From the NCBI GenBank assembly GCA_905478995.1, contig CAJQKT010000032.1, forward strand, positions 1 to 58,024: DNA of 58,024 nt, in the 5' to 3' direction. Position 1 is the first letter of the stretch; each line of letters begins with the position of its first letter. The DNA is from an uncultured Pseudomonadales bacterium. Lineage in GTDB: Bacteria; Pseudomonadota; Gammaproteobacteria; Pseudomonadales; UBA7434. Positions 30,557 to 32,716 of this stretch are shown piece by piece. The position numbers and the translations under genes are program-made. The notes under the pieces were generated by a model, which had not been told where the DNA came from, searched no databases, and was given only the letters and a program-made list of their open reading frames with translations.

Positions 30557-31561
30557 ATGCGCGACACGCCACTCAAGCAAGGTGCAACCTCCCCCATGCT
30601 CAGCTGGCGTGACCAACTGCGTGTTTGGCGAGATTCGCATCGACTGTTCGCTAAGCAGAGCTTCGATCGCCTATGGGAAAAGCCGCTCGCCACACTGGTG
30701 ACGCTGACGATGCTTGCCATCGCCATCGCCCTGCCCACGCTGTTACATCTAGGGGTGAAAAATGTTTCCAGCTGGGTCAGTTATTCAGACAGCGGCTTAG
30801 AGATGACTGCTTACTTACACATGCCCACCGTTCCGGGCCAATCGATCACTGACTTCAATAGCGAGGGGCAAGCGTTAGCGCTGCGTGTCGCGCAACTAAG
30901 CGGCGTTAAACAAGTTGAATTTATTTCGGCTGAAGACGCGCTCCTCCGGCTCGAGGCTATTGCCGGAGCTGGGAGCATCGATATTATCGACAGCCTGCCC
31001 GCCAACCCATTGCCAGCCGCCATCAGAGTGGTGGTTGGGCAAGGGCCAGAGTTGGCTTCCATAGCCAATGCGCTTGCCCAACAAATAGAAGTATTGCCCG
31101 AAGTCGAGTCTGTGCGCTTTAATCTTGAGTGGTTTCAAAAGGCGCAAGCCATTGTGCAACTGGTGCTAAGAATCAATCTGGCCGCATCGGTGTTGCTCGG
31201 CATGGGCGTCGTGCTGGTCATCGGGAACACCGTGCGCGTATCCATCGCTAGCCGGCGCGAAGAAATATTGGTAGCCAAGTTAGTGGGTGCCACCAATGCC
31301 TATGCAAGAAGACCTTTTTTATACTTAGGGGTCTGGCTTGGCGCGACAGGCGCAGCGATGGCATTGATCATATCGTTCGCATGTATGTATGCACTCACAT
31401 ACTACATAAAGCCCTTAGAAGCAGCCTACAGTACCAATATCAGCATACAGCGCTTAAGCGCCGATACCGCACTAGTCATTTTTTTGGCCAGCGCAGGCCT
31501 TGGCTGGGTTGGATCTTGGGTGATTTGCAGTAATCAAATCAGTAAACTTGAGCCCGAATAA
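30557..31561 (+). CDS. ftsX: cell division protein FtsX
   Basis: The 334-residue membrane partner of FtsE has an N-terminal cytoplasmic part, a first membrane helix around 53-71, a periplasmic loop of about 110 residues (the part that contacts amidase activators), then three more helices after about 200. The segment NTVRVSIASRREEILVAKLVGAT is the conserved FtsX/MacB coupling region. The start codon abuts the ftsE stop. Confidence 0.96.
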   Translation: MRDTPLKQGATSPMLSWRDQLRVWRDSHRLFAKQSFDRLWEKPLATLVTLTMLAIAIALPTLLHLGVKNVSSWVSYSDSGLEMTAYLHMPTVPGQSITDFNSEGQALALRVAQLSGVKQVEFISAEDALLRLEAIAGAGSIDIIDSLPANPLPAAIRVVVGQGPELASIANALAQQIEVLPEVESVRFNLEWFQKAQAIVQLVLRINLAASVLLGMGVVLVIGNTVRVSIASRREEILVAKLVGATNAYARRPFLYLGVWLGATGAAMALIISFACMYALTYYIKPLEAAYSTNISIQRLSADTALVIFLASAGLGWVGSWVICSNQISKLEPE

Positions 31562-31695
31562 CAGCCCCGCAACTCTTTTAAGATTTTTGACTCTTTTCGG
31601 AGCATTTGGCAACTTTTAAGCACCTTTGCCAATATCTAGATGAATTTTTAAATCTATGCCGATGACGGCTAAGGCGGCAATCCTGGCACCCCGCA

Positions 31696-31724
31696 TTGAA
31701 CTATTTCAACATTAGCACTCTAAT
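31696..31724 (+). promoter_or_regulatory. sigma-70 promoter of rpoH overlapped by CIRCE
   Basis: TTGAAC (31696-31701), 17-bp spacer, TCTAAT (31719-31724, five of six consensus bases). The -10 lies across the left arm and spacer of the CIRCE element, so a bound repressor would block RNA polymerase. Predicted start is near 31731, leaving a leader of about 120 nt before rpoH. Confidence 0.6.
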
Positions 31725-31738
31725 GCAGAGAGTGCTAA
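31712..31738 (+). promoter_or_regulatory. CIRCE element (HrcA operator) upstream of rpoH
   Basis: TTAGCACTC (31712-31720), nine-base spacer, GAGTGCTAA (31730-31738). Both arms and the spacer length equal the CIRCE consensus exactly. CIRCE is the operator of HrcA, the repressor of groESL and dnaK operons in many bacteria. Here it stands 115 bp before the rpoH ATG. Confidence 0.9.
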
Positions 31739-31852
31739 AATTGCTGTAACGAGGCAGCGCATCCCACCCAATCTTTCCACCTGCGCTCCCAATGATTACC
31801 TATCGCCAACACCGAGCAAATGCTCAGGCGCGAGAAGAAGGACAATGCAGAC

Positions 31853-32716
31853 ATGAATACACAACTACAAGCGATACCGGTGCTGACACCCGGCAGTAAT
31901 ATCAATGCCTATATGGCCTCGGTCAATAGCTTTGAAGTACTGAGCAAAGACCGAGAACAAGAACTTGGCCGCCGACTAGTCGAACAAGGTGACCTGGAAG
32001 CCGCCCGCGAGCTGATACTTTCGCACCTTCGCTTCGTTGTCCGCGTGGCAAAATCTTACAACGGCTATGGGCTTGGTTTAGGCGATTTAATTCAAGAGGG
32101 AAACATTGGTTTAATGAAAGCGGTTAAGCGCTTCAACCCTGAAAAAGGTGTCCGGCTAGTATCATTTGCCGTGCACTGGATCAAAGCCGAGATCCATGAG
32201 TTTATCTTGCGTAACTGGCGTATCGTTAAAATCGCCACTACCAAAGCGCAGCGCAAATTATTTTTCAATTTGCGCGGCAAGAAAAAAGATTTGGCTTGGC
32301 TGAGCAGCGAAGAGGCACAGGTCATCGCCGAAGATTTAGGTGTGGCAGTCTCAGATGTCCAGCAAATGGAAGGTCGGCTTTCATCCTATGACATGGGCTT
32401 CGATGCACCGGCAGATGCCAGCGAAGAAAAAGCGGCTCAATCTCCTGCCTATTTTTTACAAGACCAGTCAGCCGATCCAGCATTAGCGAGTGAAGATTCT
32501 CAGTGGGCACAGCAACAAAGCACTGAGTTGCGACAAGCGCTACTTTCTCTAGATGATCGCAGCCGCCATATTCTTCAAGCACGCTGGCTCAATGAGTCTT
32601 CGAAAGTTACCTTGCACGATCTAGCTGCTGAATATGGCGTGTCCGCTGAGCGCATACGCCAGCTTGAAAAAGAAGCTATGAAGAAGCTCAAAACCGCTAT
32701 GCAAGCGGCCGCTTGA
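31853..32716 (+). CDS. rpoH: heat-shock sigma factor RpoH (sigma-32)
   Basis: The 287-residue sigma-70 family protein has region 2 with LRFVVRVAKSYNGYGLGLGDLIQEGNIGLMKAVKRF-type sequence, the RpoH box (QRKLFFNLR) at about 130-140, and a C-terminal region 4 helix-turn-helix, LHDLAAEYGVSAERIRQLEK. It directs transcription of chaperone and protease genes on heat stress. The frame extends to 31820, but the ATG at 31853 gives the family start and has AAGGA about ten bases upstream. The CIRCE operator upstream indicates control by HrcA. Confidence 0.96.
   Translation: MNTQLQAIPVLTPGSNINAYMASVNSFEVLSKDREQELGRRLVEQGDLEAARELILSHLRFVVRVAKSYNGYGLGLGDLIQEGNIGLMKAVKRFNPEKGVRLVSFAVHWIKAEIHEFILRNWRIVKIATTKAQRKLFFNLRGKKKDLAWLSSEEAQVIAEDLGVAVSDVQQMEGRLSSYDMGFDAPADASEEKAAQSPAYFLQDQSADPALASEDSQWAQQQSTELRQALLSLDDRSRHILQARWLNESSKVTLHDLAAEYGVSAERIRQLEKEAMKKLKTAMQAAA

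Follow-up and report, generated by a model that had tools for sequence, protein, structure and literature searches.

Introduction

In Escherichia coli, the heat-shock sigma factor σ32 is regulated mostly after transcription. To our knowledge, E. coli rpoH is not under the control of HrcA, and no HrcA match was obtained for E. coli in the control set. Its rpoH promoter P3 depends on σE and reads GGAACTT-N16-TCTGA. In general, σE (RpoE/AlgU, ECF02) promoters combine a -35 element GGAACTT with a -10 element TCTNA at 15-16 nt, and extended -10 promoters follow a TGNTATAAT-like consensus. In other HrcA systems, the repressor is controlled by GroEL.

P3 has served as a σE reporter in a study in which the SigE of Bordetella bronchiseptica transcribed the rpoH (fam) promoter of that species in vitro (PMC3490749). 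The text of that paper mentions neither HrcA nor CIRCE. Control of rpoH by HrcA was predicted in Geobacter sulfurreducens, where an exact CIRCE precedes the rpoH translation start by 51 nt (Rodionov et al. 2004, PMC545781). Priority for the plain observation of a CIRCE at rpoH cannot be claimed. A literature search on HrcA, CIRCE and rpoH yielded, among the matches listed, no title on a σE promoter overlapped by CIRCE. HrcA is not mentioned in the accessible parts of the main texts of two further papers (PMC9866376, PMC6085468), nor is AlgU driving rpoH in that part of the former.

Here, a CIRCE in front of the rpoH gene of an uncultured Pseudomonadales bacterium is described. The window, i.e., the whole stretch of DNA that was analysed, comprises 58,024 nucleotides and belongs to a genome assembly of 2.55 Mb in 102 contigs, which is 99% complete.

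The rpoH locus and its predicted operator

The gene at 31853-32716 (+ strand) is rpoH, as the earlier note had proposed. Its product, the heat-shock sigma factor σ32, matches the NCBIfam equivalog TIGR02392 with 392.8 bits (cut-off 323.1). The upstream neighbour on the same strand is ftsX (30557-31561, TIGR00439 above cut-off), and the gene order is ftsY-ftsE-ftsX-rpoH. A 27-nt element at 31712-31738 (+ strand) lies in the ftsX-rpoH intergenic region, 114 bp upstream of rpoH. It reads TTAGCACTC-N9-GAGTGCTAA with 0 mismatches and consists of a left arm (31712-31720), a spacer (31721-31729) and a right arm (31730-31738). The perfect CIRCE claimed for this site is thus present. It is unique in the window at up to 3 mismatches, and none was obtained in 100 shuffles; the exact match and the shuffles rule out a chance palindrome. 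We give a probability of about 75% to the reading that this element serves HrcA as its operator at rpoH and that HrcA would gate both promoters described below; the operator itself is predicted from the exact match and from the co-occurrence with hrcA in relatives.

The repressor gene was looked for in the rest of the genome and found. The single hrcA match lies in the order hrcA-grpE-dnaK-dnaJ and adjoins recN. Its product scores 308.5 bits with the HrcA equivalog (cut-off 197.2), and its residues 4-319 align with a solved HrcA structure of the T. maritima type (1stz). A genome-wide search at up to 3 mismatches returned only two CIRCE-like sites, the one before rpoH and one further copy before groESL, and the reversed control pattern gave 0 matches in this genome. 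The hrcA-grpE-dnaK cluster has no CIRCE at this threshold. In particular, none precedes hrcA in the genome-wide search, and inspection by eye showed none in front of hrcA or grpE either. A σ32-like CTTGAA...CCCCCA was noticed by eye before grpE (L004:5700-5740, minus strand). As CIRCE is found at groESL and rpoH only, HrcA would reach DnaK solely via RpoH, provided that it acts here as elsewhere.

Predicted promoter elements beneath the operator

The earlier note had placed a σ70 promoter under the operator, with TTGAAC (31696-31701) and TCTAAT (31719-31724) separated by 17 bp. Both hexamers and their spacing are as it described them. As for the sigma factor, the σ70 type is probably not correct: it was demoted after the rpoH CIRCEs of relatives had been aligned, since the comparison gives a σE-type element. 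A simple σ70 scan of 31500-31900 gave TTAGCA-N18-TAAAAT with a TG extension, overlapping CIRCE, as the sole site on the + strand, and the TTGAAC/TCTAAT pair is absent among the sites that it printed.

The predicted σE (RpoE/AlgU) type promoter has its -35, TGAACTA, at 31697-31703 (+ strand; 5/7 to GGAACTT). Its -10, TCTAA, follows at 31719-31723 (+ strand), 15 nt past GAACTA, and straddles the border between the CIRCE left arm, which contributes two bases, and the spacer, which contributes three. A further predicted element, TGCTAAAAT at 31733-31741 (+ strand), would be the extended -10 of a housekeeping promoter. It was matched by the scan with its TG extension, conforms to the extended -10 consensus and combines bases of the CIRCE right arm with the 3 nt that follow. 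The genome contains rpoE and anti-sigma genes in an rpoE-rseA-rseB-rseC operon. Because the -35 of the window is weak, the σE assignment rests on comparison. In the window, GAACT-N14..18-TCTNA was found once against 1.31 expected, i.e., no more rarely than by chance. A search of the 5 kb surrounding rpoE gave no GAACTT-N14..17-TCNNA. Regarding autoregulation by σ32, the sequence upstream of rpoH, inspected by eye, showed no CTTGAA/CCCCAT-like pair.

The comparison included 59 rpoH CIRCEs, 24 from relatives and 35 from named loci, and 17 groESL CIRCEs. For the latter, 25 groES places from 28 genomes were read, and the sites with up to 3 mismatches were taken. The -35 was searched at offsets -19 to -11 from CIRCE. 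Aligned on CIRCE, most relatives show (G/T)GAACTT about 8 bases upstream, then TCTAA. GGAACTT at 6/7 or better was found at 39 of the 59 rpoH CIRCEs, always at -15 to -17, whereas none of the 17 groESL CIRCEs has it; when the 45 nt upstream were base-shuffled, 1.3-1.5% of the shuffles attained 6/7. Likewise, TCTNA occurs in 33/59 rpoH CIRCEs and in 0/17 groESL CIRCEs. The T three bases past CIRCE, which completes TGCTAAAAT, is present in 57/59 and in just 3/17, respectively. Operator and repressor are shared with groESL, this genome's other CIRCE, but the operator there mostly lies after a σ70-like promoter (by eye). We consider the promoter under the rpoH CIRCE as most likely of the σE type, (G)GAACTT-N15/16-TCTNA, rather than σ70, and as the most likely counterpart of E. 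coli rpoH P3.

A -35 at 5/7 or better is present in 23/24 genomes with an rpoE match (searched at E up to 1e-30) vs 1/4 without (28 checked; Fisher p 0.005, which ignores relatedness); three of the latter four genomes are 70-75% complete, and the fourth is G049 (99%). In G049 (rpoH locus L051), there is no rpoE match, the CIRCE at rpoH is kept and the σE-type -35 is absent. The pairing is not strict. Indeed, 20/59 rpoH CIRCEs, including that of the window, lack a 6/7 -35, and G008 has rpoE without this -35, so HrcA control would not require σE. Among 28 selected named loci, 27 of them without CIRCE, 14 have a GGAACTT-like -35 (at least 6/7) and a TC-type -10 at 14-17 nt, a count made with no chance control. 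Examples are Kluyvera, Halomonas, Idiomarina and Aliidiomarina. Among the same 28 loci, the combination is absent from all four of Pseudomonas and from Vibrio, Acinetobacter and others.

Co-occurrence of the operator with hrcA

The spread of CIRCE at rpoH was studied in 57 genomes, i.e., the window's own, 11 congeners and 45 from the order. Related genomes are not independent, and the p values ignore relatedness. The counts in relatives were confined to sites that precede rpoH or groES, and rpoH loci were placed by tblastn. Genome-wide counts at 3 mismatches were left unused because the reversed control also matches in 30/57 genomes.

An rpoH match at E 1e-80 or better was obtained in 56/57 genomes, an hrcA match in 19/57 and a CIRCE with up to 3 mismatches upstream of rpoH in 24/57. 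All 18 genomes in which both hrcA and rpoH were found have CIRCE at rpoH vs 6/38 without an hrcA match (G002, G003, G004, G011, G013 and G026). The nineteenth hrcA genome, G032, gave no rpoH match. Among the genomes that are at least 90% complete, the figures are 16/16 vs 3/32 (Fisher p 4e-10, which again ignores relatedness). CIRCE at rpoH is thus nothing exceptional but common in relatives that keep HrcA. Conservation in close relatives, which the earlier note had made a test of its proposal, is seen in seven of the 11 congeners, which carry the element with up to 3 mismatches; it has decayed in the other four, all of them without an hrcA match.

The operator was also looked for in named rpoH loci. 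The 80 loci used are the best-ranked 80 of a longer list, mostly from beta- and gammaproteobacteria. CIRCE with up to 3 mismatches was found at 35 of these best-ranked 80, for instance, in Alcanivorax, Dyella, Methylocaldum, Pseudoalteromonas, Nitrosomonas, Pandoraea and Trinickia. The named rpoH loci of Pseudomonas, Halomonas, Vibrio and the enterics have none (best 6-8 mismatches). In the Lysobacteraceae locus L122, the rpoH palindrome reads TTAGCAGTC...GACTGCTAA, with both arms altered together. Similar but less perfect palindromes occur in L099 and L105 (L122, L099 and L105 are the rpoH loci of Lysobacteraceae, Luteimonas and Xanthomonas). The joint change of the arms in L122 may indicate that the specificity of HrcA has shifted in Xanthomonadales.

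The arrangement had also been regarded as unusual for Gammaproteobacteria. The class sample does not bear this out. An hrcA match was found in 130/185 genomes, and TTRGCACTC-N9-GAGTGCYAR with up to 1 mismatch occurs in 139/185, the reversed control pattern in 3. For 34 listed CIRCE-bearing genomes, 31 could be judged; two had no rpoH, and for one the place of rpoH was not listed. For 27 of the 31 judged genomes, the matches listed include a CIRCE that precedes the rpoH match by 68-233 bp. In the remaining four (G081, G206, G226 and G231), CIRCE is present, but none lies before rpoH among the matches listed. G149 (C127:858), which is 99% complete, has a CIRCE before rpoH and is not one of the 130 for which an hrcA match is listed.

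Loss of hrcA and fate of the operator

Several genomes offer a view of what happens to the operator without its repressor. In the congeners G001, G002, G004, G006, G008 and G011 and in G026, which belongs to another family, recN adjoins grpE with a gap of about 0.2-0.4 kb and no hrcA match in between. In the clade G001, G005, G006 and G008, none of which has an hrcA match, decay has left the operator at rpoH with 4-5 mismatches. This clade was taken from an RpoH tree of 15 rows (support 100/100), and grpE was not found in G005. On the other hand, G002, G004, G011 and G026 keep an rpoH CIRCE with 0-1 mismatch without an hrcA match (rpoH loci L055, L053, L054 and L041). Their grpE loci are L070, L072, L073 and L065. 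G002, G004 and G026 are at least 95% complete, yet they retain the operator.

The groES sites were read as well. In G004, G011 and G026, no CIRCE with up to 3 mismatches was found before groES; the site of G002 there is a variant, with 2 mismatches. In the hrcA-bearing G010 and G055, no CIRCE with up to 3 mismatches precedes the groES match obtained. The retention of CIRCE without hrcA could reflect a recent loss, an undetected regulator or a dual use of the bases as promoter elements. The loss of hrcA in congeners, with and without operator decay, provides natural experiments on the dismantling of such a switch.

Alternative explanations

Three other readings of the locus were weighed against an HrcA operator that gates both promoters. 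CIRCE might repress a σ70 promoter alone, be it TTGAAC-N17-TCTAAT or the extended -10 TGCTAAAAT, the likeness to σE being unused here. The weak TGAACTA, the chance-level frequency of GAACT-N14..18-TCTNA in the window, the near-constant T of the extended -10 (57/59) and the 20/59 rpoH CIRCEs without a 6/7 GGAACTT, among them G049, are all consistent with it. Nevertheless, we regard it as unlikely. TCTAA is constant in the window and the 7 CIRCE-bearing congeners, whereas the sixth base is T, G or C, which fits σE better. Moreover, TGAACTA stands at the same position in the near relative G007, GGAACTT recurs at a fixed offset in other rpoH CIRCEs, and the rpoE operon is present in the genome.

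The remaining two readings deny HrcA a substantial role. In the first, the palindrome would be a relic: it would persist mainly through the second use of its bases in the promoters, and rpoH would be controlled by HrcA weakly or no longer at all. The near-intact palindromes of G002, G004, G011 and G026, where recN adjoins grpE and no hrcA match was obtained, speak in its favour, but the genome of the window does have hrcA. In addition, the needs of the promoters would leave the TTAGCA bases unexplained, and these bases have changed in another clade without an hrcA match. This reading is considered very improbable. Least probable is a role of the palindrome as RNA, i.e., as a hairpin or terminator between ftsX and rpoH, instead of an HrcA site. 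The segment 31702-31800 does fold better than 200/200 shuffles (z -4.04), a fold that would be relevant only to read-through transcripts from ftsX. However, the element follows the exact CIRCE consensus, its arms are kept while the spacer varies, and it co-occurs with hrcA. Since transcription is predicted to start within the palindrome or beyond it, rpoH mRNA made from these starts would not contain the whole of it. The terminator version was rejected, as no terminator-like site was found in 31500-31900.

Proposed mechanism and comparison with known systems

If CIRCE serves HrcA as its operator at rpoH, the bound repressor would cover the -10 and the start region of the σE-type promoter TGAACTA-N15-TCTAA, whose predicted start is near 31730. 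It would also cover the spacer and the -10 of the overlapping extended -10 housekeeping promoter (TGCTAAAAT). By analogy with other HrcA systems, we infer that GroEL controls HrcA here. Free GroEL would keep HrcA active and rpoH repressed; unfolded protein would titrate GroEL, HrcA would be released and rpoH would become transcribable. The released gene would then be read by the σE holoenzyme under envelope stress and by the housekeeping holoenzyme otherwise. Direct control by HrcA would be limited to groESL and rpoH, with the DnaK arm following via RpoH. What the sequence itself shows is the CIRCE, hrcA, the rpoE-rseA-rseB-rseC genes, the presence of just two CIRCE sites and the return of the composite in relatives; HrcA binding, repression and the sigma factor used at each element are inferred. 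The part of this mechanism that is most likely new is the gate that HrcA would place on σE.

A broader proposal can be made, tentatively and at slightly less than even odds. The position of the σE -10 physically within the HrcA operator could go back a long way in the rpoH genes of beta- and gammaproteobacteria and would mean that rpoH is turned on only under envelope stress combined with GroEL overload. E. coli P3 would then be the same promoter after HrcA was lost and the operator eroded. If many beta- and gammaproteobacteria put HrcA on the σE promoter of rpoH, two stress sensors, GroEL load for the cytoplasm and σE for the envelope, would meet within about 45 bp.

Among the described systems, that of G. 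sulfurreducens is similar in having CIRCE upstream of rpoH. It differs in that its hrcA-grpE-dnaK-dnaJ cluster also has CIRCE, and no σE promoter beneath the operator is described in the accessible part of that work (PMC545781). The likeness to E. coli rpoH P3 lies in the promoter: GGAACTT-N16-TCTGA stands upstream of rpoH in the Kluyvera and Lelliottia loci too. In contrast to the window, these two loci have no CIRCE, and the spacing is 16 there vs 15 here. If HrcA does act on the σE promoter of rpoH in many beta- and gammaproteobacteria, the wiring of E. coli may be a derived, simplified form.
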